A program made the position numbers and the translations under genes. From the NCBI RefSeq assembly GCF_001999245.1, contig NZ_CP019630.1, positions 5,857,001 to 5,921,000 on the forward strand: a DNA stretch of 64,000 bases, given 5' to 3'. Of the stretch, positions 50,099-64,000 are shown in pieces (the first letter of the stretch is position 1; the number at the start of each line of letters is the position of its first letter). The DNA is from Roseibium algicola. Lineage in GTDB: Bacteria; Pseudomonadota; Alphaproteobacteria; Rhizobiales; Stappiaceae. Below the pieces are notes generated by a model. That model had not been told where the DNA came from, did no database searches, and saw only the letters and a program-made list of their open reading frames with translations.

Positions 50099-51277
50099 AT
50101 GTCTTCCACCAATTCCAAGCCGCCGTTGAGGCAGGATACCAAACTGGCGCATGCTGGGCGTGACCCGCTTGCATTTCACGGTTTCGTCAATCCGCCTGTC
50201 GTGCATGCTTCGACTGTTCTCTACCCCGACACCAAAACCATGGTGACGGGTGCCCAGACCTATTCCTACGCCCGCAGGGGCAACCCGACCACGGACTCCC
50301 TTGAAGGTGCCATGAAGGAGATCGAAGGGGCAGCCGGGGTCAAGATCGCGAATTCGGGTTTGAATGCCATTGCATTGGCCATCCTGTCCTGCGTGAAATC
50401 CGGTGACCACATCCTGATTGTCGATACGGCTTACGGACCGACCCGCCATTTCGCCGACACTGTTCTGCCAGGCATCGGGGTTTCCGTGACCTTCTACGAT
50501 CCGAAGATCGGCGCCGATATCAAGTCACTGTTCCAGGAAAACACGACAGCCGTGTTCACCGAAGCACCCGGCTCCCTCACCTTCGAGATGCAGGATGTTC
50601 CGGCGATTGCCGCCGAGGCCCGTGCCATCGGCGCGACCGTTCTGATGGACAATACCTGGGCGAGCCCGATTTACTGCCAGCCACTGTCCATGGGGGTCGA
50701 TCTGTCGATCCAGGCGGGCACCAAATATCTTGTCGGACACTCCGACGCTATGCTCGGTACGGTCGCTGCCAGCGAACGCGCCTGGGAAAAACTGGATGCG
50801 TTCTGCGGTGCCATGGGGTGTCACGTCGCGCCGGATGACATCTACCTCGGCCTGCGGGGTCTCAGAACTTTGTCCGTGCGCCTTGAACGGCACCAGCGCA
50901 ACACGCTAGCCGTTCTTGGGTGGCTGAAGGACCAGCCCAACATCGATCGCATCCGCTATCCAGGCCTTGAATCGGATCCTGGTCATGCTCTCTGGAAACG
51001 AGATTTTTCGGGAGCCTCAGGCCTGTGCGCCTTCGACTTCAGTGAAAGCACGACACAGGAACAGGCCTACGCCTTCCTGGATGCGCTCACGCTTTATGGT
51101 CTCGGGTATTCGTGGGGTGGTTTTGAAAGCCTTGCCATTCCGGTTCGCCTCAAGGGCAGCCGCACAGCAACCCCGGTAAACCTGGATCGCCAGTCGGTTC
51201 GCCTCCACATCGGCCTGGAAGACCCGGAAGATCTGATTGCCGATCTGGATCAGGCACTGGCGAAGGCATTCGGCTGA
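50099..51277 (+). CDS. metC: Cystathionine beta-lyase-like PLP enzyme
   Basis: 392-residue Cys/Met-metabolism PLP enzyme. YARRGNPTTDSLEGAM (about 65-80) binds substrate and PLP, the pyridine-stacking and Asp regions VLMDNTWASPIYCQPL (about 184-199) follow, and the PLP Lys is in SIQAGTKYLVGHSD (about 204-217). GYSWGGFESL (about 345-354) is typical of MetC. It cleaves cystathionine to homocysteine, pyruvate and ammonia. Start at ATG 50099 (AAGAG upstream) or 50057. Confidence 0.9.
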   Translation: MSSTNSKPPLRQDTKLAHAGRDPLAFHGFVNPPVVHASTVLYPDTKTMVTGAQTYSYARRGNPTTDSLEGAMKEIEGAAGVKIANSGLNAIALAILSCVKSGDHILIVDTAYGPTRHFADTVLPGIGVSVTFYDPKIGADIKSLFQENTTAVFTEAPGSLTFEMQDVPAIAAEARAIGATVLMDNTWASPIYCQPLSMGVDLSIQAGTKYLVGHSDAMLGTVAASERAWEKLDAFCGAMGCHVAPDDIYLGLRGLRTLSVRLERHQRNTLAVLGWLKDQPNIDRIRYPGLESDPGHALWKRDFSGASGLCAFDFSESTTQEQAYAFLDALTLYGLGYSWGGFESLAIPVRLKGSRTATPVNLDRQSVRLHIGLEDPEDLIADLDQALAKAFG

Positions 51278-51305
51278 CAGACTGTCGAGCGAACGGCGGA
51301 ACGGC

Positions 51306-51620
51306 TCAAATCGTAGGGTCGTTCCGCTTTTCCTTGAAAATCAGCCACAGGTTCCGGAAATAGATTAGCAGACCCAGTCCCTGACCGGCGATGAAGACCG
51401 GATCCTGTCGTTGAATGGCATAGATCAGCAGCAGCGACCCACCCGCAACGGAAAAGAACCAGAAAGCGACCGGCACGATTGAGCGGCCAACGCGCTCGGA
51501 TGCGATCCATTGAATGACGAAGCGCATCATGAACATGGCCTGGGCGAAGAAACCCAGAATGATCCAGAAGTCCAATTGCGCGATGAAAACCGCATGGATC
51601 CATTCGTATAGAGCGCTCAT
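51306..51620 (-). CDS. LpxB N-terminal-domain-like membrane protein (LABNDP)
   Basis: 104 residues with three or four hydrophobic segments, matching the small domain found at the N-terminus of some lipid A disaccharide synthases (IILGFFAQAMFMMRFVIQW, residues about 20-38; GLGLLIYFRNLWLIF, about 80-95). In other bacteria stand-alone copies sit next to ArnC-like glycosyltransferases, as here, 64 bases behind the GT2 gene. Possibly a flippase or scaffold of the same lipid-sugar pathway. Confidence 0.85.
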   Translation of the reverse strand: MSALYEWIHAVFIAQLDFWIILGFFAQAMFMMRFVIQWIASERVGRSIVPVAFWFFSVAGGSLLLIYAIQRQDPVFIAGQGLGLLIYFRNLWLIFKEKRNDPTI

Positions 51621-51684
51621 GTCTCAGGTCCAGTCAGTGTTTTTGAAAGGTCGGCGGGCTTCTCCACCCGGATTGGGGCATTAA

Positions 51685-52446
51685 TCAGGTCAGTGGCCGA
51701 ACATCCGGAATTTTTTTACGGCGGCGGCGCAGCCACCACACTCCGAACAGATCCAGCACACCGACCAGCGCCCTGTCAAAGATCCCGTATTTAGACGTTC
51801 CATGGCGCCGCTGCCGGTCCTGAACGTCGATATGGGTGACACCGTAACCCTCGCGGATCACGAGTGCGGGCAAGAACCGGTGCCAGCTGTCGAAGTATGG
51901 CAGTTGCAGGAACACTTCCCGGCGCAGGGCCTTCAGGCCGCAACCGCTGTCACGAGTGTTATCCCGCAGGATCGCGCCGCGCAGCTTGTTGGCAAACTTC
52001 GACGCATAGCGCTTGGCCAGGCTGGCCTTGCGGCCGAGTCTTTGCCCGGCGGCAAGAGCAACTGCCGGGCCGGCAGCGTCGAGAGCGTCCAGAAGCGCCG
52101 GAATATAGGCGGGGTTGTTTTCGCCATCGCCGTCTATGGTCGCGACGACGTCGCCCCTCGCATTCAAAAGACCAGTGCGCACCGCGCAGCTCTGGCCACA
52201 GGACTTCTCGTGCCTGACCGGCCGCAGCCAGTCATGGGTTGCCGCGTAATCCTGCAACACGATATCCGTGCCGTCGGACGAGCCATCGTCGATGACGATG
52301 ACCTCGAAACGCCTGCCCTGCAATGCTGCCTCGATTTCATCCAGCAGGATGGGCAGGTTTTCCGCTTCGTCCTTCGCGGGAACCACGACCGTGACGGCGA
52401 GCGCGCCCTTGCTGGCCGCAACAGCTTCCAGATAGCTTTGTGTCAT
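51685..52446 (-). CDS. GT2 polyprenyl-phosphate glycosyltransferase (ArnC/RgtE-like)
   Basis: 253 residues. GT-A fold with TVVVPAKDEAENLPILLDEI (about 19-38, part VVVPAKDEAENLP), the first Asp motif VIDDGSSDGT (about 52-61) and the metal-binding DGDGENNP (about 108-115). Makes a lipid-linked sugar donor, such as polyprenyl-phosphate-hexuronate, for a GT-C enzyme. The frame continues upstream without a stop to 53145 but that reading overlaps the phosphatase gene; ATG 52446 overlaps its stop as ATGA. No C-terminal transmembrane pair as in Dpm1-like proteins of ArnC type. Confidence 0.88.
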   Translation of the reverse strand: MTQSYLEAVAASKGALAVTVVVPAKDEAENLPILLDEIEAALQGRRFEVIVIDDGSSDGTDIVLQDYAATHDWLRPVRHEKSCGQSCAVRTGLLNARGDVVATIDGDGENNPAYIPALLDALDAAGPAVALAAGQRLGRKASLAKRYASKFANKLRGAILRDNTRDSGCGLKALRREVFLQLPYFDSWHRFLPALVIREGYGVTHIDVQDRQRRHGTSKYGIFDRALVGVLDLFGVWWLRRRRKKIPDVRPLT

Positions 52447-53354
52447 GCGCTTGTCCGTTCTGTCGTGTCTGCCGCAGGGGCCTCGGCTTCCACACGGTCG
52501 GCGCCACGCTGGCCGCGCAGAACCTGCCAGACAGCCCGCACACAGGCCTTGGCAGACAGGACATTCATGTTGGGTACAATCTTTCCGGAGGAAGACAGGT
52601 GAAAGCCGATCCGCCGCCGGGCCATGGCACGAACCGTGAAAAAGGTGAACGTCATCCCCAATAGCGTACCTGCGATGACGTCGCTGGGGTAATGCGCCCC
52701 GACCATGACGCGGCTGAACGCAAGCCAGAAGCCCGCAACAATGATCAGCCACCGGTAGGCCGGGAAAATAAAGGCCAGCGCAGTTGCAAGCGCAGCGACA
52801 GTGGTCGAATGACCAGAGGGGAAACTGGTGAAGGTGCCGTCGAAGGCCAGAAAGTCGAAGCGGACCGGACCAACTTCCTCGTAAAGCTTGGGACGCGCCC
52901 GGCCGAGCGACCACTTGAATGCTATGGCCAGAAGCCCCGTCGCGGCGACTGAATAAAAGATGAAGGCCGCATAAGTGAACACTGCGCCGATTGCCATGCG
53001 CAGGCGGAATGCGTAGCGCCCGGCATCCAGCGCCAGCAGAAACAAGCAGCACAGACCGGTAGAAACGAGGATCCAGTCGGCCTTGCCGATATCGGTAAAG
53101 GTTCGGAAGGCGGCCCGGTATTCGCCCGGGAGGGAGCGCAGCCACGGATAGGTCGGAACATCGAACGCAACGACTGCAATGCCAACCGTCAACAAGAGGA
53201 CTGCAAGGATATCCTGCGGCCGCTGCCCGGGAGGAAGCGGATCCCTGTTGTGGCGCGCACGTTCCCTGCGACCGGAAAACAGTATTGCAGCCCGCCGAGA
53301 ATTCCCGCGCATGCGCGCCAGAACATGCCAGACAAATTTACTGCTGTTGCTCAT
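52443..53354 (-). CDS. PAP2-family membrane phosphatase (LpxE/LpxF-like)
   Basis: 303 residues, about six transmembrane helices. The three phosphatase motifs are KWSLGRARP (about 147-155), FPSGHSTT (about 180-187) and SRVMVGAHYPSDV (about 219-231). Such enzymes remove the 1- or 4'-phosphate of lipid A or dephosphorylate polyprenyl diphosphate. Start ATG 53354 overlaps the ArnT-like gene end by 17 bases. Sits between an ArnT-like and an ArnC-like enzyme, so phosphate removal before sugar addition on lipid A is the best hypothesis. Confidence 0.88.
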   Translation of the reverse strand: MSNSSKFVWHVLARMRGNSRRAAILFSGRRERARHNRDPLPPGQRPQDILAVLLLTVGIAVVAFDVPTYPWLRSLPGEYRAAFRTFTDIGKADWILVSTGLCCLFLLALDAGRYAFRLRMAIGAVFTYAAFIFYSVAATGLLAIAFKWSLGRARPKLYEEVGPVRFDFLAFDGTFTSFPSGHSTTVAALATALAFIFPAYRWLIIVAGFWLAFSRVMVGAHYPSDVIAGTLLGMTFTFFTVRAMARRRIGFHLSSSGKIVPNMNVLSAKACVRAVWQVLRGQRGADRVEAEAPAADTTERTSA

Positions 53355-55155
53355 TGCCGTCTTCTGAAACCGTCGTCGGCACGGACTTCTCATAAAGCCC
53401 GATATCGACATCGTCCCCGCCATTGATATTGAGGCCGTCTACCCTTTTTACAGCCTCCGGCACAAGACCAATCTCCTTTGCGGCGGCCAAAAACGCGGCT
53501 TCTTCCCGGCTTTCTATTGCCGCGATACGGCAGGTAGCTGGATTCGCGGCTTCATCGGCAGCAAGAAAGGCGGCGGCATCCTGCGCGGAAACGATCTTTG
53601 TCGTCGTGCCTTCAAGGAATATGAAACTGGGTTCGTGAAAGCCGGTGGTCACGACCAGACGGTTCGACTTGTCTGCACAACCGGGGATTTCGTCCATGGC
53701 CGCGACAAGGCGCGGACTGACCCAGATCGGCGTAAGAGCTGGGCCGACAAAGCCCCAAAACCCGATGCTGACGCAAATCGCTGTCAGGCAGATGGCGGGG
53801 AAAGCATAGAGCGCCGGTCCACGCAGAACCCGGGATGCTGCCGCAATCGCAAAAACAGCTCCCACTGCAAGCAGAACGGATCCGGGAGGTGACGGCCAGA
53901 CACCCAGGGCAAAAGGACCGGCAAACGCGGCGACGGCCAACCCCAACGCAGGCACCGCCAGCAGCACTGCCGCTACCCAACGCAGCCACGTTCTCGTCGT
54001 GGCGCCAGCCCCCTCCATCAGCGCAGCAGCAACAGGAAGTGCTAGGGCAGGCAGCAGCGGCATTGTGTAATGCGGAAGCTTCGTTGCAACCAGTTCGAAC
54101 ACGATCCAGCTTGGGACGAACCAGGCGACGGCAAACGTCACCAGCGGACTTTTTCGTTCATGCCAGATGAGCGGCAAGGCAATCACGAAGAATGCAGGCA
54201 AAGGCCAGAATATGCCGAACATCGCCCCAAGATGGGTAAGCGGGGGTGCTCCATGACCTTCCTGCCCCTGCCCGACCTTGCCAAGCAGATCCTTGCCGAT
54301 GGCTTCAGTAAAGAACGTTCCGTCCGTCGCGATCCAGATTGCCACGAACCAGGGTGAGACGAGCAGCACGAACCACAGCAGACCCGCGATTGGCGCCGTT
54401 CCCTTGAACCATGCAGCTTTCCGTTTCATGGCCATGAGGCCAACAACCGTAAGGCCAATCACCATGGGTCCAACCGGCCCCTTGATGAGCACACTGCCCG
54501 CAAGTGCAGTCCAGAACAGGAACCCAAGACCCCATAGCCGCTTGTCCGGATCCTTCAACCAGACCCGCGCCAGGGCACCTTGCGCTATTATGATCATTGC
54601 AAACAGCGCGGCATCAGTTTTTGCCAGTCGCGCCTCGACGCCGACAATGATCGCCAGCGCCACGAAACCTGCCGCCAACAGCGCACCGGCAGGCCCCATG
54701 AATGCCCGTGCAAGCCAGAAGGTTGCCAGAACGCTGATTATCGAGGCTATGACGGAAGGCAGTCGATAAGCCCAAAGCGGAGCGTCCGCCCCCTGCCCTG
54801 TCAGCTTTACGGCAGCTGCCTGAAGCCAATAGATCCCGACTGGCTTTTTGTGACGTGCCTGATCCTGAAAACGAATGTCGATGTAATCGTTCGTTTCCAG
54901 CATCTGCTTGGTTGCCTGGGTAAAACGCGGTTCGTCCCTGTCCAGCGGAGGTACCGTCCATTGACCTGGTACGAACAAGGCAAGCGACAGGAGCAACAGA
55001 AGGAACGGTGCAGTGATGTCGTGGCCGAAGATATGCAACCAGACCGGTTTTCGAACCGGGGCAGCCGACGGGCTATCCACCTTGTCCTTGCGTTCGGATT
55101 TCTCGGTTGCCTTGCCTGCCGCCTCGGGCTTCTGATCGTCGCGCGTGTCCGACAT
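53338..55155 (-). CDS. ArnT-like GT-C glycosyltransferase (GT83)
   Basis: 605 residues with about twelve transmembrane segments and a C-terminal periplasmic part. PPLDRDEPRFTQATKQM (about 69-85) holds the catalytic Asp-Glu region of ArnT/PMT enzymes and HKKPVGIYWLQAAAVK (about 102-117) the following loop. Transfers a sugar from a polyprenyl phosphate to lipid A or another periplasmic acceptor. First gene of the operon. A charged N-terminus of 40 residues (rich in Lys, Glu) precedes the first helix. ATG 55155 chosen; a TTG one codon upstream is also open. Confidence 0.9.
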   Translation of the reverse strand: MSDTRDDQKPEAAGKATEKSERKDKVDSPSAAPVRKPVWLHIFGHDITAPFLLLLLSLALFVPGQWTVPPLDRDEPRFTQATKQMLETNDYIDIRFQDQARHKKPVGIYWLQAAAVKLTGQGADAPLWAYRLPSVIASIISVLATFWLARAFMGPAGALLAAGFVALAIIVGVEARLAKTDAALFAMIIIAQGALARVWLKDPDKRLWGLGFLFWTALAGSVLIKGPVGPMVIGLTVVGLMAMKRKAAWFKGTAPIAGLLWFVLLVSPWFVAIWIATDGTFFTEAIGKDLLGKVGQGQEGHGAPPLTHLGAMFGIFWPLPAFFVIALPLIWHERKSPLVTFAVAWFVPSWIVFELVATKLPHYTMPLLPALALPVAAALMEGAGATTRTWLRWVAAVLLAVPALGLAVAAFAGPFALGVWPSPPGSVLLAVGAVFAIAAASRVLRGPALYAFPAICLTAICVSIGFWGFVGPALTPIWVSPRLVAAMDEIPGCADKSNRLVVTTGFHEPSFIFLEGTTTKIVSAQDAAAFLAADEAANPATCRIAAIESREEAAFLAAAKEIGLVPEAVKRVDGLNINGGDDVDIGLYEKSVPTTVSEDGNEQQQ

Positions 55156-55172
55156 CAACTTTCTGTCCAGTT

Positions 55173-55214
55173 CCTGCGTCCGGTGTCCTGCGCCCGGTGT
55201 CCTGCGTCTGGGCG
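55173..55214. repeat. Three tandem 14-base repeats upstream of the ArnT-like gene
   Basis: CCTGCGTCCGGTGT (55173-55186), CCTGCGCCCGGTGT (55187-55200) and a decayed third copy CCTGCGTCTGGGCG (55201-55214), 18-59 bases before the ArnT-like start. Possible slippage-prone promoter element; no function shown. Confidence 0.55.
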
Positions 55215-55348
55215 GTCGCCCCTGCCCGCCCGTTTCTGAACGCTTCTCCTACATGAGCTTTTCAAAAAGGGAAACTAGTGCTTGCCCTCTTCGAACGCAC
55301 GGTTATCGTCCGGGCAGATGATCCACCTGACGAGTCACAAGGTTTTCC

Positions 55349-56185
55349 ATGACATTGATTGCTCATATGACGGACCTGCATTTGCGTCCGCGAGGTTTGC
55401 CCTGCTATCGCGTTTCGGACACCAATATGCTCGCCGAGCGCGCGATCAAGTCGCTGAAGAGTCTCACGCCGAAACCTGATGCTCTCGTTATAACCGGCGA
55501 TATAACCGACAGAAACGATCCAAGGGAATACGCGCTCGCCCGCTCCATCCTCTCGCGCGTCGACATGCCTGTCTATCTTGTGCCCGGGAACCACGACGGC
55601 ACAGAAGTCATGCGCCGCGAGCTCGGCAGCTTTCCAGGTCTTTCAGGCAGCCTTGAAGACAAGATCTGCTATACGGCGGACATCGGCGACATCCGCCTGA
55701 TTGCGCTGGATACCCATATTCCGGGTGATCCGCGTGGTCGGCTCGGTCAGGCACAGCTTGACTGGCTCGACAGCCGGCTGCGCGAAAGCGCCAAGACAAC
55801 GCTGATCGCCCTCCACCACCCGCCTGCACTTTCCGGGATCCGACACATGGACGACATCGGACTTGTGGATGCCGATGCGCTTGCAGAAGTTGTTTCGCCG
55901 CACCGGCATGTTGCGCGCTTCCTGTGCGGTCATCTTCACCGTCCGATCATCGCGAGCTTTGCCGGAAAGGTGATGACGCTTGCTCCCAGCACCGGACACC
56001 AGGTCGTCCTCGACCTGACGGAAGACGGTCCCGCCATGTTCAACTTCGAACCCGCAGCCTATTTTCTCCACTATCATTCGCCGAAAACCGGAGTGGTGTC
56101 ACATATGGCCTACGTGGAAGCGTATCCTGGCCCGTACCATTTCTTCGCCGATGAAGGCGTCGTCTGGCCGGGAGATGAAACCTGA
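55349..56185 (+). CDS. Class III cyclic nucleotide phosphodiesterase-like metallophosphoesterase (CpdA/GpdQ-like)
   Basis: 278 residues with the metallophosphoesterase motif set: D-x-H in MTDLHLRP (7-14), GDITDRNDP (about 50-58), GNHDGTE (about 79-85), ALHHPPALSG (about 153-162) and GHLHRPI (about 190-196). Hydrolyses phosphodiesters such as cAMP or glycerophosphodiesters with a binuclear metal site. Its stop overlaps the next gene by one base (TGATG). Confidence 0.88.
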   Translation: MTLIAHMTDLHLRPRGLPCYRVSDTNMLAERAIKSLKSLTPKPDALVITGDITDRNDPREYALARSILSRVDMPVYLVPGNHDGTEVMRRELGSFPGLSGSLEDKICYTADIGDIRLIALDTHIPGDPRGRLGQAQLDWLDSRLRESAKTTLIALHHPPALSGIRHMDDIGLVDADALAEVVSPHRHVARFLCGHLHRPIIASFAGKVMTLAPSTGHQVVLDLTEDGPAMFNFEPAAYFLHYHSPKTGVVSHMAYVEAYPGPYHFFADEGVVWPGDET

Positions 56186-56733
56186 TGTCCGTAATCGCCC
56201 TGCCCAAACGCCTCCTGGCGCTGTTGCTGCTTGGCCTTTTCGCGGCCTCCCTCAGCGCCTGCGGCGCTTTGCCGGGAAAAAGCGACCTTGAAGACAAGAC
56301 AGTGCTGACGGACCAGCCGGTCGACAAGGCGCAGATGCTGTCGATGATAAACGCCTACCGGCAGCAAAAAGGCCTGCCCGCATTGCGCCACGACCCGGAA
56401 CTGGATGTCGTTTCCCAAAAGATGGCACGCCATATCGCCGAGCGCGACAGTATGGACACCTGGGCTCACAGTGCCTTCGGTCTGTCACAACGGCTCGACA
56501 AGGCAGGGTACGCAAATTACGCAGGCGCGGAAAACCTGGGGGCGGGATACGCTGATCTGGCAGCAGCCTTCCGTGGCTGGCAAGGCTCAGAAGGCCACAA
56601 CAAGAACCTTCTCAACCCCTACGTGACACGGGTAGGTATTGCCAGAACCAACCGCAACAATGGCAAATGGCGCAATTTCTGGGTGATGACACTGTCCCGC
56701 CCTTATGCGGACGGCCGACCGACCGTCCGATAA
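56185..56733 (+). CDS. CAP-domain (SCP/PR1) lipoprotein
   Basis: 182 residues. Signal peptide with lipobox LSAC (Cys at residue 27), then a CAP domain: MLSMINAYRQQKGLPALRHDPEL (about 51-73, part INAYRQQKGLPALRHDPEL), H in TWAHSAFG and AENLGAGY...GWQGSEGHNKNLLNPYVTRVGIA (part: GHNKNLLNPYVTRVGIA). CAP proteins bind lipid or act as surface factors; the function in bacteria is mostly unknown. Coupled to the phosphodiesterase gene. Confidence 0.88.
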   Translation: MSVIALPKRLLALLLLGLFAASLSACGALPGKSDLEDKTVLTDQPVDKAQMLSMINAYRQQKGLPALRHDPELDVVSQKMARHIAERDSMDTWAHSAFGLSQRLDKAGYANYAGAENLGAGYADLAAAFRGWQGSEGHNKNLLNPYVTRVGIARTNRNNGKWRNFWVMTLSRPYADGRPTVR

Positions 56734-56742
56734 CAAGGCACC

Positions 56743-56770
56743 TGGAAAAAGGGCGGAGCCAAGCTCCGCC
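56743..56770 (-). terminator. Intrinsic terminator of the ycaO gene
   Basis: GGCGGAGC (56752-56759) and GCTCCGCC (56763-56770) pair around three bases. Read on the minus strand the stem is followed by CCCTTTTTCC, a T-tract, so it ends the ycaO transcript, 115 bases after its stop. Confidence 0.75.
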
Positions 56771-56884
56771 AAAAGGCTTCTTCCAGAGATCGAATGACCC
56801 AGTTGTCATCCGGACGCCTCGCAAACAAAACATGAATGCTTGGCTCATATTTTATTAAGGCCGGCGCATCAGCCTGTCAATCGT

Positions 56885-58258
56885 TCAAAAGGGAAATGGT
56901 CGGACGGCAAATTCGGCTTCGGACGCGGGGACGTCTCGCAAACCACGCTCTACTACCCCGTCGAACAACCTTTTTTTGCCGAACTTTGGCTCCCAACTGC
57001 ATAGCTCAGGGGACAACAGCTTGACGCAGGGAATTGCAAGGTCTTGGCGGGTCGCATCAAACTCCCAGAGGCTGATCCCGCGGTCGAAACAACCCTGAAG
57101 CAGGGTTTCAAAAGTCGAGGTCTTCTCCAGAACCTCAAGACGGGCGGCAACCGCCCCCCGCAAAGGCAGATCCTCGAATATCACGCGCTCTCTGGCATAC
57201 GCCAGCTGCCTGGGTAGCGACCTCAGTGCTTCTTTTGTGCCGTGACTGGCGGGATAGGATTTGTCCATCAGAGACAGCGCGTTTTCCGATTGCAACATTT
57301 CCTGAATTGCACTGGTGCAGGCCTGTGCGGTGTCCCAACCGGCGGATGATCCAAACGCACACCCCCGGCCGTAACCGTCATGAGAGACACAAATCACCAC
57401 CTGGACCGGCAGGTCCGTGTCGACGTGCAAGAGCTCCCATTCCCGAGGCTGGTCATCGAGATATTGGACCAGATCAGGAGGGAGCATTTCCCTCACATAG
57501 CCTTCAGGTAGAGAAGTTATCCCCAGGCGGTTGTACCAGGCCTGCGCAACTGCATCACGCTCTACAAGCTCAAGAAGCGCGCGCGCGCGCGCTCCCTCAA
57601 GATCATGCCAGACAGCGCATCCTGCGCTCGAAGCAAAGGGCAAACGCAAGCCGGTAACGTCATCGGCTTCGTTAAACAAAATTCCCAAACTAAGGCACTG
57701 CGCCTCTTCATCAGTCTGCAGATTTCGCAACCGGACACGCCTGGCTGAAAGAGAAGACCAGTCTGAAGAGTTGACGCGTGAAAGATCCCGTCCGAGACGG
57801 AGCCTGCCGAGAGCGACACTTGCCTGGGCTTCACTCAATCCAAGCAATCGACCAAAATCTACCTGAGGTTGTTTTTTGTCGTAATTGAAAATCCTATTGT
57901 CACTAATCCCGATACTACAAAGGGTTAGCCTTTCGGAAAGCTCCCCAATACAACTAATAGCTGCAATTGATGCGATATCCCCCTGTCCACCGGCAGGAAT
58001 TGGTGCCCCTGCAGCAGGTACTTCATTTGCATCAGTTTCAGATGACTTGAGCAACCCGGTGCAAAAATGCACCGGGCATCCGGGGCGTGTCATCGGGACC
58101 AGTCTTGGGGAGAATGACGAAAGCAGCTTCAGGAAAAGACGAAGGTCCGGCTCCAGCAAGCGCACACGATCTCCCTCAACGCCCGGCTCCACCGCTATCA
58201 GGCCCAAACGCGACAGGTCCGCAAGTACGTCGTCCGCAAATCCACTTTCAACGATCAT
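56885..58258 (-). CDS. YcaO-domain protein (putative azoline/thioamide-forming RiPP enzyme)
   Basis: 457 residues. The YcaO ATP-binding motifs are readable: G-x-G in GGQGDIAS (90-97), SxxxExxER as SCIGELSER (102-110), and ExxERD in LELVERDAVAQAWYN (229-243), plus IQEMLQ (318-323). YcaO enzymes use ATP to activate peptide amide bonds and make azolines, thioamides or related groups. Residues 1-60 show no recognised domain and could be a peptide-recognition element. The tail is RPFPF, not the PxPxP of many azoline cyclodehydratases. No E1-like partner, TfuA or dehydrogenase is in the window. Divergent from two NHLP-like precursor genes. A (GC)8 tract lies in the coding region (57577-57592). Confidence 0.85.
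   Translation of the reverse strand: MIVESGFADDVLADLSRLGLIAVEPGVEGDRVRLLEPDLRLFLKLLSSFSPRLVPMTRPGCPVHFCTGLLKSSETDANEVPAAGAPIPAGGQGDIASIAAISCIGELSERLTLCSIGISDNRIFNYDKKQPQVDFGRLLGLSEAQASVALGRLRLGRDLSRVNSSDWSSLSARRVRLRNLQTDEEAQCLSLGILFNEADDVTGLRLPFASSAGCAVWHDLEGARARALLELVERDAVAQAWYNRLGITSLPEGYVREMLPPDLVQYLDDQPREWELLHVDTDLPVQVVICVSHDGYGRGCAFGSSAGWDTAQACTSAIQEMLQSENALSLMDKSYPASHGTKEALRSLPRQLAYARERVIFEDLPLRGAVAARLEVLEKTSTFETLLQGCFDRGISLWEFDATRQDLAIPCVKLLSPELCSWEPKFGKKRLFDGVVERGLRDVPASEAEFAVRPFPF
57577..57592. repeat. (GC)8 dinucleotide tract inside ycaO
   Basis: Sixteen bases of uninterrupted GC repeats, encoding the alternating Ala/Arg of GARARA at YcaO residues 222-227. It lies just before the ExxERD motif. 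Dinucleotide slippage here would shift the frame and remove the active site, so the tract could make the gene phase-variable; this is inference. Confidence 0.8.
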
Positions 58259-58542
58259 AGAAGAGACACCGCCGCCAACAGTGAGGATGCGGGACGGCTG
58301 CTTATGTTTTGATATGGCAATTTACTTCGCCTCACCCTGCAATTGCACACAACGTAGATTAACAAAACTGCCATTGAGCGAGTTCATTTCCTCGTTCTAC
58401 ATTCTATTCGAAAGCAGTCGATCAGTAGTAAACAGTCTCAATACATAACTATTTACTAAAGTTTGACCGAATTTCAAAAAGCCAGGTGACCATCCCACCA
58501 CCAGGCAGGACACATTGCAACTCAACCTATCGGAGGCTCATA
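58259..58542. promoter_or_regulatory. AT-rich divergent promoter region, ycaO / precursor genes
   Basis: 284 bases, clearly richer in A+T than the flanks, without a protein gene. It must hold the ycaO promoter (leftward) and the precursor promoter (rightward), and is the natural target of the SARP-like regulator. A TTGACC (about 58463-58468) is a candidate -35 box for the precursor genes. No clear repeats of the SARP binding type were found by eye. Confidence 0.4.
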
Positions 58543-58833
58543 ATGCACGCTGACACAACTTCCCGGACTGAACTGGAAATTGGCGCGAAACTTGGCGCGA
58601 TCATTCAGAACGCCACAGCACGTGAGCGGCTGGTTGCCAACCCGGCTGAAGTCCTGGCTGAAGTTGGCATCAACTCCGATGCCGCAATCTTCGCCGACAC
58701 TGCTGACCTCGTCCATCTCGTGATTCCTGCACAAATCGACGCTGAACGCGTTGCAGCCGGCGATGAAAGCTATTTCGAAGAACTCGGTAAAGCAGCTCTC
58801 GGCAATTGCTTTTACGAAGACGTCCCGGAGTAA
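58543..58833 (+). CDS. NHLP-type RiPP precursor candidate 1
   Basis: 96 residues. The first half carries the nitrile-hydratase-leader-like pattern: LGAIIQNATARERLVANPAEVLAEVGI (17-43, part: RERLVANPAEVLAEVGI), i.e. an alpha helix, then Asn-Pro and a following helix ending at Gly. A second block, LVIPAQIDAER..ESYFEEL (59-81), is shared with precursor 2. The C-terminal 15 residues include the only Cys (Cys89 in GNCFYEDVPE), a plausible modified core. No Gly-Gly cleavage site is seen. CGGAGG precedes ATG 58543 strongly. Function as precursor is inferred from the divergent ycaO gene. Confidence 0.75.
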   Translation: MHADTTSRTELEIGAKLGAIIQNATARERLVANPAEVLAEVGINSDAAIFADTADLVHLVIPAQIDAERVAAGDESYFEELGKAALGNCFYEDVPE

Positions 58834-58860
58834 GCCGGTAAGGTCGTCACGATACGTCTC

Positions 58861-58898
58861 CGGCCTTCTTGCTTCGCGCAGGAAGGCCGTCGTTCTTT
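58861..58898 (+). terminator. Hairpin between the two precursor genes
   Basis: CGGCCTTCTTGC (58861-58872) pairs with GCAGGAAGGCCG (58878-58889), one G-U pair, around a five-base loop, followed by TCGTTCTTT. It has the form of a leaky intrinsic terminator, which would make more mRNA for precursor 1 than for precursor 2. Confidence 0.65.
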
Positions 58899-58913
58899 CC
58901 GATTGGGGTAACG

Positions 58914-59201
58914 ATGGCCAGATTTCCCTACTACCAGAGCAACGTCAAAGACCTTGGCAAACTTATCGCCAGGGCAGCGATCGACGAAAACTTCCGACGC
59001 GAGCTCGAGCGAGACCCATTAGCTGCAATTTCCAATATTGGCCTGCCGAAAGAGACGGTGGCGCTCATGCGGTTCAAGATCGTCGATCAGAAAAACAATC
59101 CGAACGCCGTAGCTCTTCCTTTTCGTCTGAACGAAGAAAAGCTGAACAGCGCCAACGAGGAGTATCTGAAAGCTCTGTCTTCGACGTTCGCGCTAAATTG
59201 A
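58914..59201 (+). CDS. NHLP-type RiPP precursor candidate 2
   Basis: 95 residues, paralogous to precursor 1: LGKLIARAAIDENFRRELERDP (14-35, part: ENFRRELERDP) is the leader helix with Asp-Pro, and VALPFRLNEEKLNSANEEYL (66-85, part: LPFRLNEEKLNSANEEYL) matches the second block of precursor 1. It ends as KALSSTFALN and has no Cys, so any modification would fall on Ser, Thr, Asn or backbone, or it could be a helper or immunity-type homologue. Starts 80 bases after precursor 1 with a weaker TTGGGGTAACG site. Overlaps the end of the convergent regulator gene by nine bases. Confidence 0.72.
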   Translation: MARFPYYQSNVKDLGKLIARAAIDENFRRELERDPLAAISNIGLPKETVALMRFKIVDQKNNPNAVALPFRLNEEKLNSANEEYLKALSSTFALN

Positions 59202-61187
59202 ACCGGAACCGTCGAACAGGAACCGCTGCACCAAGGCTGCGCCCTTGTCGAAATCGTTTCGCACTTTCTCGTTCTGGAAGAAATTGATCTTCTTTCTCCA
59301 GCTTTTGGGGTCCTGCGCAAGCTCGGGAGAGTTTTTCAGCAAGGCAGCACGGTTTTCACCAAAGCGTTCAAGCGTGTGCATGGCTTCTTCTTCTCGCCCG
59401 GCACAGACCAAAGCGGCCACACGAGTGGTCAAGCCACTGATACCAACCCCGGCGCCCCGCTCTATCTGCTTTATCGCGCTGTCGTAGTCTTCCGCGGCAA
59501 AATAGATGTTCGCCAGGTACTCGTAGAAAACGCGGGGCACAAACGCGAAGAGAGAAAAAGCTCTTTCGGCCGTAACGCGCGCTTCGTTGATGTCGCCGGA
59601 AAAAGCCAGGCCCTCGGCAACGGACATCAGGTTGGCTGGATCAGCCGAGCTCAGACGTCCGGCGTTCTGGAACGCTCTTCGCGCCTCGTCAGGCATATTA
59701 GACAGAATAAGTGCCCAACCATAAACACGCTGATTGACCGCCTGCCAGGGGTCAAGCCTGATCGATTTTTCAGCAAGGTTCAGAAGATTGTTTTCTTCAC
59801 CGGAAAACGTCTTGTCCATGAGCGGGAAATGCAGTTCCTGCTTCATGATGATCGACGCCTTGCCAGCATACGTCATCGAGAACGAACGATTTGTGCGCTC
59901 CAGATCATCCAGCAAGCGCATCGCTTTTTCGTCGGATTGCGGCGTGAAATCCCACAACAGGGCTTCAGCCTGACACCAACGGGCGAAAACGGATGTTTTC
60001 GCGGGGTTTCTTAGTCTGCTGGTCGCGTGGTTATGGATGCGGCTCACAATCTGGCTCGCAGCCGGCACCAGACCGTCCCAGTATTGCAGGTCAATTATCT
60101 CGTTAAAGACAATCTGACCGTTGCCCCTGTCCTCGAACTGGACAACCACTTTGCCCGATCGCTCGTCATGCCGGAACCTGAGCAGATAACAGCCAAGTTC
60201 GTGACCTTCCATCAAGGTTGGACGTGGCACGTTTTCTTCGCCGAAATACTCAGATTCAAACAGCTCGAACGACCGAAACGAAGAAAGGCCGGAGACGATT
60301 TCCTCTCTCAGATGGATCGCGTCGTTCAGCCCCTTTTTCAACAGGGATGACGAGACAATGGAAATTTCTGGCAAGGGAACGAAGTCATCGTAATTTGGCA
60401 GGAACCCTCGGTTTCCACCGCTGTTGCCATCACTTCTTCCAACCGGCACCGGAGAAGGTTCGACCTCCGATACGATCAGCAGCTTCCGCGTCTCTTCATC
60501 AGGCTCAGCATCCAGATGGAGCCGCATTTCCCTTTCGCAGGATCTGAGCTGCTGTTCGGCGCGCTCGGGCTGACCCAGATTCATGTAGAGACGAATAAGA
60601 ACGCGATGGGCCGCCTCAAACGCAGGATCGAGCTTCAGGACAAAACGCGCCCCGGCCTCTGCCTGCACACCCCCGTCTTCCGTGGATATCCTGTTCAGAT
60701 GCTTGAAGGCGGCGCTGATGAGTTCTGAGCGCACCCGTTCACGCTCGACCGTCAGCCACTCGGAAAATTCAGAATCGATATCGTCGTAGCCGGTCAGGAA
60801 CTCGCCGCGCCACAGTTCCCCCGCATTGCGGAAATCCGCTGCCTGCCCACGTTCCAGAAGCGTATTCATGGCCATGAGATCAGACGCAAACGCCGATGGG
60901 TCGAGTTGAATGTGACCTGGCGCTGAGCGCACTACATCGATACCGGCCGTTTCTTCGGCGCTCTTCAACTGGCGCAATGCCTGACGCAAGGATTGCATTG
61001 CCTTGTGGCGGTCTGTCCCGCTCCAAAGCAAATCCGCCAGTGCTTCCCGGGGCGACGCCATACCGCTCATGCGGCTCAGATAGCCCATGATCGCCAGAGC
61101 CTTGCGGGTCTTGACCGCCACAGGTTCCTGGTCGCTATCAAGGAGCAAAGGCCGCCCAAGGCATGCAAAGCAGGACGCGATTGCCAT
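59193..61187 (-). CDS. SARP-type regulator with BTAD and TPR-like repeats
   Basis: About 664 residues. An OmpR-type winged helix at the N-terminus (with RKALAIMGYLSRMSG and PREALADLLWSGTDRHKAMQSLRQALRQL, in part) is followed by a bacterial transcriptional activation domain (about 100-235) and, after a linker, a long TPR-like helical C-terminus (about 400-640). SARPs often switch on secondary-metabolite clusters, here beside ycaO and precursors. ATG 61187 has GGGGA at good spacing; ATG 61211 would add eight residues. Convergent with precursor 2 by nine bases and divergent from the small acidic protein. Confidence 0.85.
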   Translation of the reverse strand: MAIASCFACLGRPLLLDSDQEPVAVKTRKALAIMGYLSRMSGMASPREALADLLWSGTDRHKAMQSLRQALRQLKSAEETAGIDVVRSAPGHIQLDPSAFASDLMAMNTLLERGQAADFRNAGELWRGEFLTGYDDIDSEFSEWLTVERERVRSELISAAFKHLNRISTEDGGVQAEAGARFVLKLDPAFEAAHRVLIRLYMNLGQPERAEQQLRSCEREMRLHLDAEPDEETRKLLIVSEVEPSPVPVGRSDGNSGGNRGFLPNYDDFVPLPEISIVSSSLLKKGLNDAIHLREEIVSGLSSFRSFELFESEYFGEENVPRPTLMEGHELGCYLLRFRHDERSGKVVVQFEDRGNGQIVFNEIIDLQYWDGLVPAASQIVSRIHNHATSRLRNPAKTSVFARWCQAEALLWDFTPQSDEKAMRLLDDLERTNRSFSMTYAGKASIIMKQELHFPLMDKTFSGEENNLLNLAEKSIRLDPWQAVNQRVYGWALILSNMPDEARRAFQNAGRLSSADPANLMSVAEGLAFSGDINEARVTAERAFSLFAFVPRVFYEYLANIYFAAEDYDSAIKQIERGAGVGISGLTTRVAALVCAGREEEAMHTLERFGENRAALLKNSPELAQDPKSWRKKINFFQNEKVRNDFDKGAALVQRFLFDGSGSI

Positions 61188-61367
61188 CAATTCCCCGTAT
61201 TTGAAATGCACGCTTCAGCCGTCGCCTTCGCGCAACCGCGAATATCACGCAACCTGAAACACAACAGCACCTTATCACGCTCATTTCACGCTGCAACAGC
61301 ATGCTTTAATCGGATGGTCACAGCAGCGACGCTGCAATCGGCAAATCAAATACTGGTGGGTAGTAAA

Positions 61368-61622
61368 ATGTCTAAGACCGTTAGCAAATCGGACCGCACT
61401 GAACTCGAGCAGGAGCCTGCAATCGAGGCGATCAAGCGCATGATCCGCTACACGAAAAAAGAATCGGACAAGGACGGCCGTACGTTCTGTTCCTATTTCC
61501 TGGATATGGCTCTTCAGTCCCTGGAAGATGGTTCCGAGGACGTGGACATGATCCTCAAAACAAAGATCACGCCGCTCATGGTTGGCCAGAAGGTGGAATC
61601 GGGAAAGTCCGAGACGCTCTGA
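61368..61622 (+). CDS. Small acidic protein, unknown function
   Basis: 84 residues, rich in Lys, Glu and Asp: EQEPAIEAIKRMIRYTKKES (about 13-32) and TFCSYFLDMALQSLEDGS (about 38-55). It has one Cys and no signal peptide. GGTGGG stands upstream of ATG 61368. It is divergent from the SARP-like gene (about 180 bases) and is followed by an excellent intrinsic terminator, so it is a real single-gene unit. Not recognised. It may belong to the YcaO locus. Confidence 0.65.
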   Translation: MSKTVSKSDRTELEQEPAIEAIKRMIRYTKKESDKDGRTFCSYFLDMALQSLEDGSEDVDMILKTKITPLMVGQKVESGKSETL

Positions 61623-61649
61623 CCTTCAGGCGAATCGCGGTCTAGAAAC

Positions 61650-61695
61650 ACCGCCGTGCTCCTATATTGCAGGGGCCGGCGGTTTTTGTTTTTTG
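61650..61695 (+). terminator. Intrinsic terminator
   Basis: ACCGCCG (61650-61656) pairs with CGGCGGT (61677-61683) with a further CTCCT/AGGGG pairing inside, followed by a T-rich tract TTTTGTTTTTT (61684-61694). Confidence 0.85.
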
Positions 61696-61814
61696 CAGGC
61701 TTTTTCCAAGTACCTGACTTGAACATCCAGTTTAGGACATCTGCACGGCAGGAAGCCTTTCCACGCATGGTAGAGGCATCGAAGCTCAGGACTTATTCAA
61801 AAAAATCAGGGAGA

Positions 61815-61891
61815 TGGCGACTCCGGCAGGATTCGAACCTGCGACCATTCGCTTAGAAGGCGAGTGCTCTATCCAGCTGAGCTACGGAGCC
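61815..61891 (-). tRNA. tRNA-Arg (anticodon TCT)
   Basis: Cloverleaf on the minus strand: acceptor GGCTCCG (61891-61885) pairs with CGGAGTC with one G-U, the D-arm TAGCTCAGCTGGATAGAGC, the anticodon loop CTTCTAA with TCT, the T-arm CAGGTTCGAATCCTG and an encoded CCA (61817-61815). Confidence 0.96.
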
Positions 61892-62127
61892 AATTTCTCA
61901 GGAACGCAAACCGTTCCCAGATGAGACTATCAGGCAGTATCTCTGAGGCCTGCCAGACGTTCATGCAAACTTGGATCGAGACCAAACGTCCGGAGGCAAC
62001 CCGATCCGGCGATCGCCTCCACTGCCCTAATGCGTCAAAAACTCGGCTCGTGTCGATTCGAAATCGGCGCTTTCAACAGACAATCCGATCTCTTGCCGAA
62101 CAGGGCAGAAGAGCCGAACGTTCTTGT

Positions 62128-62433
62128 TCAGTGGGTCCAGGGCGCAGACCGGTTGAATTTGAAATTGTCCGCATAGGCAGACCCGCGCACTTTGCGTTCC
62201 TGGGCTTTCTCAACCCTGTGCGGAATGCCATGGCGCTTCGCATATGCGACAGCTTCTTCAGAAGTCTCGAAATAGAGCCGGATTTGCTGCTTCATGTCGG
62301 AAGACGACGTGTAGCCCATCAAAGGTTCGACGGACTTGGCGACCTCCGGCTCGTAATCCAGCACCCATCTCTGGGTTTTCGCCTTGCCTGACTGCATGGC
62401 GGTTTTCGCCGGACGGTAGATACGCGCAACCAT
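62128..62433 (-). CDS. NDUFS4-like accessory subunit of respiratory complex I
   Basis: 101 residues of the ETC complex I subunit conserved region (NDUFS4/AQDQ type), found in alphaproteobacteria and mitochondria. Landmarks: MVARIYRPAKTAMQSGKAKTQRWVLDYEP (part: YRPAKTAMQSGKAKTQRWVL, about 6-25), GYTSSSDMKQQIRLYFETSEEAVAYAKRHGI (part: YFETSEEAVAYAKRHGI) and RGSAYADNFKFNR. It stabilises the NADH-binding module. Next to tRNA-Arg. Confidence 0.92.
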   Translation of the reverse strand: MVARIYRPAKTAMQSGKAKTQRWVLDYEPEVAKSVEPLMGYTSSSDMKQQIRLYFETSEEAVAYAKRHGIPHRVEKAQERKVRGSAYADNFKFNRSAPWTH

Positions 62434-62781
62434 GTGACAGTGCCCTCAAGTCTGAATATGTGAGATGCAATTCCTTACAGCAGCTTTTTCCCGCCTTTGC
62501 CGCCGGTGTCAACACCGATATTGGCCGCAACCCGCAATCTTCGGTTCGTCGGCGACTCATTTAACAGCACAAGTATGTATTAACGGTGTTGGTGGAGAGG
62601 CGAATTATGACATTCACGTAACATGACATGGAGGCGCAACTCATGCTATTAACTACCCTAACGTGAACTTGTCTGGAAGACGCCGATTTTCGGAACGCAG
62701 TGCAGGTTCAAAAAATACAGAATCGCAGGGCCGGACAGCCTGAAAGGGCCGATCCAAAGATCAAAACGATAAGGCTTTGAC
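62434..62781. other. Intergenic gap
   Basis: About 350 bases without a supported gene; the right part is AT-rich and should hold the promoter of the small gene at 62782. Nothing else seen. Confidence 0.5.
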
Positions 62782-63030
62782 ATGCATTACGAATTTCTGA
62801 AAAGACTGGAAGGGTATGTTCCGGAACATGTTCGGCCGGTTACCAGAGCGCCGGAAAAAATTGCGCCGGTCGAACTGAAAGCGGCGATCGACGACGCCAA
62901 TCTCACTGAAATGTGGGACATGATCCTGACGCTGGACTATTCGGTATCCGACCCCACCGATCTGTCACCGGAAAAACGCGACGAATTCCTGAATGTCATG
63001 TCGCTGTTGTTGAAAGCCTTCGACCGGTAG
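62782..63030 (+). CDS. Small hypothetical protein
   Basis: 82 residues, soluble, not recognised. It contains a helix-rich segment with APVELKAAIDDANLTEMWDMILTLDYSV (part: ELKAAIDDANLTEMWDMI) and a C-terminal helix PEKRDEFLNVMSLLLKAF. Preceded by an AAGG-type site. Followed by the next gene after 87 bases, possibly one unit. Probable real gene because of clean start and stop and no competing frame. Confidence 0.55.
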   Translation: MHYEFLKRLEGYVPEHVRPVTRAPEKIAPVELKAAIDDANLTEMWDMILTLDYSVSDPTDLSPEKRDEFLNVMSLLLKAFDR

Positions 63031-63117
63031 AAATGGTTATTGGCAAACGGCGAAAGATTTGCGGTGTCGCTGGTCGTTTTTTGCCGGATGGAACAAATCA
63101 AAACATGAGAGAGGACC

Positions 63118-63624
63118 GTGCTAACACGCCCTGATACTCATTTTTCGGAACTCGGCACACAGGCCATTGAAAAAGGGCTTGCCGACCCGGCTGTGTCTGC
63201 GTTCTACGACAGCATCATGTCGACCGATGCGGTTCAGATCCAGCAATGCCTGAAACCGTTCCTGCCTCATTTGAGCCTTTGCTCGGACAAGATGCCCGGC
63301 AACGCTCCTCCTCCGATCTTCTATGTCGGTAAGGAAAGTGGGCAGCGACACCTGTTCGGCGAAGACTGGGCAAGCCCGGCGACACCCGCTTGCGGTCTGC
63401 GCACACCTGATCCGGACCTGGAGAAGGCTTCGGCGGAAGGTTATCGCAAGGCATTGGAAGGCACGCCTTATTACGGCTACGCCCACACGAAAATTCAGGT
63501 CAATGGCGAATTCTATGAAGTTGCGTTCGAGCGGTTGATCGTCGCCGTGCGACCTTCGTTGCAATCCGATCTTCGCTTCTGCGCCTACCTGGGTGTCATT
63601 CAGGATCTTCAGCGGACGTCCTGA
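63118..63624 (+). CDS. Hypothetical protein with PAS-like C-terminal half
   Basis: 168 residues starting at GTG 63118 with GAGAGGA just upstream. The C-terminal part, YYGYAHTKIQVNGEFYEVAFERLIVAVRP with LRFCAYLGVIQDLQ, has the alternating strands of PAS_5-like domains found in alphaproteobacterial small proteins. No ligand residues can be named with confidence. Overlaps the convergent partial gene by 29 bases. Confidence 0.6.
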   Translation: MLTRPDTHFSELGTQAIEKGLADPAVSAFYDSIMSTDAVQIQQCLKPFLPHLSLCSDKMPGNAPPPIFYVGKESGQRHLFGEDWASPATPACGLRTPDPDLEKASAEGYRKALEGTPYYGYAHTKIQVNGEFYEVAFERLIVAVRPSLQSDLRFCAYLGVIQDLQRTS

Positions 63625-64000
63625 GGATAAGTTTTACAAGGCCGTGTAGATCGCTTCTGGTGGCATAGACCAGCCAGTCATCCGGCCTGATATGTCCAGG
63701 CGCAATCTCCCAATGCGTTCCGCGTGGCACGAACCTGCGGTAACCGACCCGGATGCCAAAGCCTTTTTCTGCGCTTTTTGCAGCCATCAGGCCATAGAGA
63801 TAATCCGGCGACCACTTCAATAGTGAGAGCAGAAACCCCAACTGGGTCAAAGGCTCGGCAAGGCCCTGCCCCCGGATGTCCCGTCTCAGCCAGAGATTGC
63901 CGTGATAGACGATACGCCCGCGCATGAAATAGGCGTCATGCGCGTGCTCTGTCCCGAAGCGAACCTGAGGGTTTGGATCGACAAAGATCCTGCGTTGCTG
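63596..64000 (-). CDS. GNAT-like acetyltransferase, N-terminus outside the window
   Basis: The frame is open from base 64000 leftward for 134 codons, so the true N-terminus lies beyond the right edge. Visible are NLWLRRDIRGQGLAEPLTQLGF, a RDxRGQGLA pattern similar to the acetyl-CoA-binding loop of GNAT proteins, and a C-terminal YRRFVPRGTHWEIAPGHI region. Assignment is tentative. It converges on and overlaps the PAS-like gene. Confidence 0.5.
   Translation of the reverse strand, partial: QQRRIFVDPNPQVRFGTEHAHDAYFMRGRIVYHGNLWLRRDIRGQGLAEPLTQLGFLLSLLKWSPDYLYGLMAAKSAEKGFGIRVGYRRFVPRGTHWEIAPGHIRPDDWLVYATRSDLHGLVKLILRTSAEDPE

Follow-up and report, generated by a model that had tools for sequence, protein, structure and literature searches.

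We analyzed a 64,000-nucleotide stretch of the Roseibium algicola genome (contig NZ_CP019630.1, positions 5,857,001 to 5,921,000; here called the window) that carries a compact locus of four genes, namely, ycaO, preA, preB, and a gene for a Streptomyces antibiotic regulatory protein (SARP)-type regulator (Table 1). A first-pass annotation, made from the letters alone, had described a YcaO gene, two precursor genes like those of the nitrile hydratase leader peptide (NHLP) family, and a SARP-type regulator; gene coordinates and domain searches bear this layout out. In a Pfam scan, the YcaO protein matched PF02624 (E = 3.8e-29; 102.5 bits against a cutoff of 25.7), and the regulator matched BTAD (37.8 bits; cutoff, 22.1) and tetratricopeptide repeat (TPR) models. 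ycaO and preA are divergent, head to head, and the SARP gene and preB overlap tail to tail by 9 bp.

Table 1. Features of the ycaO locus, in window positions
Feature	Position	Strand	Description
ycaO	56885..58258	-	457 aa; PF02624 match; aligned with LynD 301-775
Divergent region ycaO-preA	58259..58542		AATTGCA at 58341-58347; putative promoter function
preA	58543..58833	+	NHLP-like precursor, 96 aa; tail C-x-Y-x-x-x-P-E
preA L81-x4-L86	58783..58800	+	L(X)4L motif of the kind that YcaO RRE domains bind in NHLP leaders
preA Cys89 codon	58807..58809	+	Proposed modification site; invariant (48/48)
preB	58914..59201	+	NHLP-like, 95 aa; MARFP start; window copy without Cys
SARP-type regulator (BTAD + TPR)	59193..61211	-	672 aa

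The four genes form a fixed unit within the family. At a threshold of 1e-5, 56 of the 87 family genomes contain a YcaO match, which is close in 48 and remote only in 8; the close form was found in 42 of the 45 genomes of the genus and in 5 of 5 and 1 of 1 genomes of two other genera. preA was detected in 48 genomes and preB in 49, one of the latter being a weak stray (G084; 3.3e-4), and ycaO, preA, and preB occur in an identical set of 48 genomes. In every one of these, the order is ycaO (-), preA (+), preB (+), SARP (-), adjoining the same CAP-domain gene. An 84-residue open reading frame (ORF), orf84, flanks the other side in the window and in 47 of 47 further loci, and an ETC-type gene lies beyond the orf84/CAP flank in 31 of 48; the remaining stretches end early or differ there. 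The conservation of the arrangement, which the first-pass annotation had left to be checked, is thus seen as a four-gene block in 48 of 48 genomes and as a single-precursor version in eight loci of two other families, and a chance layout is excluded. Three members of the genus (G029, G039, and G057) lack YcaO, preA, and preB. The matching site in G029 and G039 holds no trace of the four genes, a SARP elsewhere in these two genomes not having been sought. Because order and site are fixed in 48 of 48 genomes and the genes are jointly absent from these three, the cluster appears to be an old unit, maintained by vertical descent and lost as a block. A recent island is unlikely, since the site is fixed, with CAP and orf84 flanking it in 48 of 48. 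Matching loci were found in two named genomes, those of Roseibium aggregatum and Stappia sp. BW2, and proteins almost identical to the small ones are recorded under Roseibium names.

Two additional preA-preB pairs lie away from any ycaO, at L150:8519-9288 (G037:C39) and L151:3758-4464 (G066:C200). The stretches retrieved contain no ycaO, the core after LGLC is longer, and in both genomes preA and preB were duplicated together. Small proteins occurring without ycaO had been named as grounds for rejecting the proposed RiPP-like system. These pairs are such a case in letter only, since both hosts keep a complete locus elsewhere.

The YcaO protein was described at first as having intact SxxxExxER and ExxERD motifs. 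Both are present in the window protein, and the claim does not extend to the first Ser in relatives, which is Ser in 30 of the 48 YcaOs, Gly in 15, and Ala in 3. The catalytic ExxER, ExxERD, and ExxQ residues are invariant in all 48. The protein ends in RPFPF, with P456 in 48 of 48 sequences and R453, F455, and F457 in at least 90% of 46. Its TIGR03604 score is 84.5 bits, under the cutoff of 219.25. By fold comparison, the window YcaO aligns with the catalytic half of the cyanobactin Cys heterocyclases (LynD 301 to 775), and the N-terminal leader-binding half of LynD has no counterpart in it. A RiPP recognition element (RRE; RiPP, ribosomally synthesized and posttranslationally modified peptide) hidden at the N terminus was considered and rejected, as whole-length fold alignments start at LynD 299 to 301; coverage by at least one-fifth of the alignment rows spans YcaO residues 35 to 455 only, with residues 1 to 34 barely covered. 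TIGR03882, an E1-like model, gave no match to the window YcaO at E ≤ 1 and scored 140.2 bits on the control L119.

The NHLP-like nature of the small proteins stood at the level of the profile and not at that of the single protein. A profile of 22 relatives gave matches to nitrile hydratase alpha (2.6e-8) and to 8tb1, a solved NHLP leader (3e-4), and the proteins are therefore regarded as NHLP-like. Taken singly, preA and preB scored 17.2 and 23.6 bits with TIGR03793, both under the curated cutoff of 50.9, and preB scored 28.5 with NF038399 (cutoff, 40) and 25 with TIGR04509 (cutoff, 34). Public annotation of three preA relatives (P0092, P0103, and P0111) reads "NHLP leader peptide family natural product."

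In preA, strong conservation runs from residue 51 through the C terminus. Cys89 lies in the context A-L-G/A-x-C-x-Y/F-x-x-x-P, with the Pro in 47 of the 48 sequences. A85 and L86 are invariant and are followed by Gly87 (43 sequences) or Ala (5), x88, C89, and the conserved tail; L81 is Leu in 45 and Ile in 3. Seven residues follow Cys89 in 46 sequences and eight or nine in the other two. A second Cys occurs in only 2, and the tail has no invariant Cys, Ser, or Thr besides Cys89. The Gly-Gly site and hypervariable core of TIGR03793 precursors are absent from all 48. Helices are predicted at residues 2 to 22, 24 to 32, 34 to 40, 67 to 71, and 75 to 87, and residues 89 to 96 are predicted to be disordered. 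The leader helix had been said to end in Asn/Asp-Pro; this has to be corrected, as that pair lies inside the leader (residues 34 and 35) and the leader-like part of preA ends at A-L-G-x-C (residues 85 to 89). preB starts with MARFP in 46 of 48 sequences and with MPRFP in 2. Its tail varies and no Cys is conserved in it or elsewhere in preB, with any Cys in 13 and a Cys at the very end in 2. The description of two precursors holds insofar as there are two NHLP-like genes. Their equal standing is doubtful, the invariant Cys being found in preA (48/48) and in the single-precursor form (8/8); preB may nevertheless be a second substrate.

The unit was also found outside the family. Among 397 sampled genomes of the order, with at most 12 candidates scored per genome, the preA profile matched 19: 9 of the family, 8 with a single precursor, 1 with a canonical NHLP system (G220, locus L119), and 1 marginal (G320). 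The eight single-precursor genomes belong to two other families (seven of one genus, probably Acuticoccus judging from the source names of near relatives, and G110) and share the window layout, except that a single precursor accompanies SARP and YcaO, bringing the total to 56 genomes (48 + 8). When window ORFs of at least 60 aa at positions 51001 to 64000 were compared with these eight loci, only preA, preB, YcaO, and SARP matched, each in all eight, and both preA and preB matched the single precursor. The BTAD score of the SARP relative in L113 was 21.1, just under the cutoff. The single precursor joins a preB-like start (M-A/P-R) to a preA-like Cys end: it has G-C near the C terminus, with Cys-Cys in 3 of 8, and a Cys at the place matching preA Cys89 in 8 of 8. 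In the YcaO tree, 15 sampled window-type YcaOs form one group (support, 100/99), and the 8 single-precursor YcaOs join it with moderate support (91/73), the canonical L119 falling outside; the tree is midpoint rooted, and L119, L114, L082, and L084 are long branches. Because the single precursor combines the two ends and the YcaO tree agrees, these comparisons suggest that preA and preB are a duplicated, divided precursor, with duplication and complementary loss as the simplest history. In L111, L113, L115, and L117, the putative MARI start of the single precursor is preceded by a similar open stretch (MFYEAKI...; MFFEAKI... in L117), and many database relatives are given as 131 aa.

Among the best 120 of 140 database protein relatives, those whose names include an organism come from Roseibium, Labrenzia, Stappia, or Acuticoccus, except for one metagenome-assembled "Devosia sp." and one "Pseudomonadota bacterium." A mixed precursor profile matched 30 of 385 genomes of the class, reaching at most 41.5 bits apart from the own genome; all but a few matches end before position 80 of 101, and one reaches 90. 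Plasmid records contained no match to the L113 YcaO at 1e-20.

The locus was also said to lack an E1-like partner, TfuA, dehydrogenase, protease, and exporter. None of these families was found among the nine proteins at 55349 to 63624 (Pfam, E ≤ 1), the genes at 51685 to 55158 being outside the scan. TIGR03882 and TIGR03603, both E1-like, are absent from the whole genome at E ≤ 1; the Ocin-ThiF-like type was not searched for, and divergent partners can escape such models. With a fixed unit, co-occurrence in 48 of 87 genomes, NHLP homology, and no E1-like gene by these two models, the proposal of a RiPP-like YcaO system of unusually small size is well supported.

We interpret the locus, with about even confidence, as a minimal, vertically inherited peptide-modification system in which YcaO acts at Cys89 of preA and preB helps. 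YcaO most likely modifies Cys89, perhaps forming a thiazoline. TruD and LynD prefer Cys. Cyclodehydration is the most likely chemistry because the closest catalytic relatives of the window YcaO are Cys heterocyclases and because Cys89 is the only invariant candidate residue in the tail. YcaO would use ATP to activate the amide preceding Cys89, and the thiazoline would close (-18 Da) without an E1-like partner, as is reported for one bottromycin YcaO. In NHLP systems, both the first helix of the leader and the L(X)4L motif are described as binding the RRE of the YcaO (PMC12455567). Since no RRE is seen here, preA keeps L(X)4L, and preB keeps a distinctive N terminus, preB is proposed to take part in recognition and would assist in trans, either by forming a pair with preA or by delivering preA to YcaO. 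SARP would switch the cluster genes on. The product would be a short, conserved Cys-containing peptide or modified preA itself, and it is more likely to serve the cell itself, as a signal or cofactor or in metal or redox functions, than to act in warfare. NHLP systems are described as having hypervariable cores and linked transporters (PMC2887384). Here the core is conserved in 48 genomes at one site, with no recognized exporter or immunity gene, which favors a conserved role over a diversifying antibiotic.

Several observations weigh against this interpretation. SxxxExxER varies at its first Ser, single-protein NHLP scores fall below the cutoff, the structure predicted for preA has modest confidence scores (mean pLDDT, 67; pTM, 0.38), and 13 of 48 preB sequences do contain a Cys, 2 of them at the very end. 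No protease or exporter was recognized at the locus, and the RRE used by the NHLP-modifying YcaOs described in PMC12455567 was not seen. A cryptic partner may have been missed by sequence search, by analogy with AmiB, which escaped domain searches (PMC8442711). An intact SARP gene persists in G057 without ycaO, preA, and preB, so SARP has some use without the other three genes and can outlive the cluster. Finally, the nonsynonymous divergence (dN) of YcaO, 0.241, was the highest among 13 genes (others, 0.013 to 0.132) in the single pair compared, window versus L001, with a YcaO synonymous divergence (dS) of 2.06, near saturation; such fast evolution would not be expected of an enzyme whose substrate is conserved. 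Over 990 pairs from 45 loci, YcaO likewise had the lowest mean identity of the four genes in 4 of 5 bands of SARP identity, the exception being the 60 to 75% band, where preB was one point under YcaO. The SARP profile and this comparison leave out L075 and L078 (5 residues, by start-codon choice) and L002 (395 aa).

The alternative that fares best, although we consider it unlikely, is a secreted azoline RiPP (a thiazole/oxazole-modified microcin) of the two-peptide NHLP-Burk type, whose protease, exporter, and cryptic RRE or E1 partner would be encoded elsewhere. NHLP-Burk (TIGR03795) is the nearest known system in layout: its precursors are described as tandem NHLP-like pairs near YcaO, one member ending in Cys or Cys-Cys (Haft et al. 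2010, PMC2887384), compared with a Cys near the end here, and in that account, as at this locus, the pair is not linked to NHLP export genes. Duplication of the preA-preB pair as a unit in G037 and G066 and the Cys-terminal preB in 2 of 48 genomes fit as well. However, the core is conserved rather than hypervariable, the site is fixed with no further conserved gene, and TIGR03882 and TIGR03603 were not found in the genome. TIGR03795 matched neither preA, preB, nor any other of the 22 relatives at E ≤ 1, a search in which HMMER filters drop weak matches. The NHLP-Burk YcaO is described as fused to a TIGR03882 part and the window YcaO is not; SARP is adjacent here in 48 of 48 and 8 of 8 loci, and the other families have one unfused precursor.

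A different YcaO chemistry at Cys89 is improbable: thioamidation, amidine formation, or, by analogy with the removal of a C-terminal dipeptide by MusD, ATP-dependent cleavage near ALGx|C that would free the tail. The MusD match of the window YcaO (2.2e-20; residues 203 to 450) is weaker and shorter than those of TruD and LynD. YcaO-TfuA thioamidation systems have TfuA beside YcaO, whereas none lies beside the window YcaO among the nine proteins scanned, and the TfuA found in this genome sits with another YcaO. We see a slim chance for a variant built on an in-trans leader, in which an ancestral NHLP precursor was duplicated and divided, preB retaining the N-terminal recognition end and preA the L(X)4L-Cys end, a coreless preB guides a YcaO that lacks an RRE/E1 half of its own, and a small, conserved product acts intracellularly, possibly sensed by the TPR part of SARP. 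Least probable is that the target of YcaO is some other protein, or that YcaO has a part in regulation, with preA and preB being stable proteins of a helper or regulatory type and not precursors: this would suit the conservation of preA from residue 51 onward without a Gly-Gly site and the non-RiPP YcaO roles reported in Proteobacteria (PMC8442711), but it is at odds with the NHLP homology, the presence of an invariant Cys in the predicted disordered tail, and the strict linkage and joint absence with ycaO.

The preferred interpretation, modification of preA by a minimal YcaO system, can be set beside other known systems. The canonical NHLP azoline systems (MprE/MprC, PMC12455567; L119) share an NHLP-type precursor with L(X)4L and a LynD-like catalytic half; in contrast to them as described, no RRE/E1-like half was found here, and Gly-Gly and a hypervariable core are missing. 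Relative to LynD and TruD, the window YcaO has nothing matching LynD before about residue 299, and no PatA/PatG-type protease was recognized. Cox et al. (2015, PMC4603692) describe NHLP, NHLP-Burk, and cyanobactin YcaOs as grouping together, which agrees with the LynD match. The bottromycin partnerless YcaO (PMC8442711), likened by description only, is likewise without an E1-like partner. The putative peptide modification system TIGR04509/TIGR04510 gave two weak matches, to preB at 25 of 34 bits and to the TPR region of the regulator at 16.9 of 400 bits; both are under the cutoff, and SARP takes the place of the cyclase. The locus would act like an azoline-forming NHLP system, yet it departs from the named families in the features tested (Gly-Gly, cutoffs, and the fused E1-like part). 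Among the open-license literature matches listed, no title or abstract deals with this locus.

The region between ycaO and preA would be the promoter region. AATTGCA, on either strand, occurs in 30 of 48 such regions, and no 7-mer exceeded 15 in any of 20 block shuffles; conserved heptamers were seen, and none was shown to be a SARP operator. The metallophosphatase, CAP, ETC-type, and orf84 genes were rejected as parts of the system, all being at the site in three genus genomes without ycaO. The orf84 protein (61368-61622, +) occupies the same site with or without the cluster and has no Pfam family at E ≤ 1 (scanned minus its first Met). A tRNA-Arg(tct) gene (61815-61891, -) lies just past the cluster, and the three genomes that lack ycaO have it at this site too.

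The same genome has a second YcaO, in L082 (G000:C1:5738441-5757391), with TfuA (PF07812; 3.3e-42). It adjoins a TPR protein whose N terminus resembles that of the window SARP (27%; 1e-10), with no BTAD match at 0.01; a 413-aa neighbor has no Pfam match. Nine remote family YcaO loci (L053, L054, and L084 to L090) form a tree group of their own, with a SARP relative beside YcaO in 9 of 9 and no NHLP relatives beside them at E ≤ 1.

If our interpretation is correct, a natural YcaO of the catalytic lineage of the NHLP-modifying azoline enzymes but without a recognizable RRE, seen in 56 genomes, would test the role of the RRE and whether a second precursor protein can stand in for it. With fewer recognizable parts than known systems, the locus, carried by marine Roseibium and certain relatives, could show how little such chemistry needs. 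Few RiPP-like molecules are known to have a housekeeping role, and a conserved, vertically inherited YcaO product would join them.
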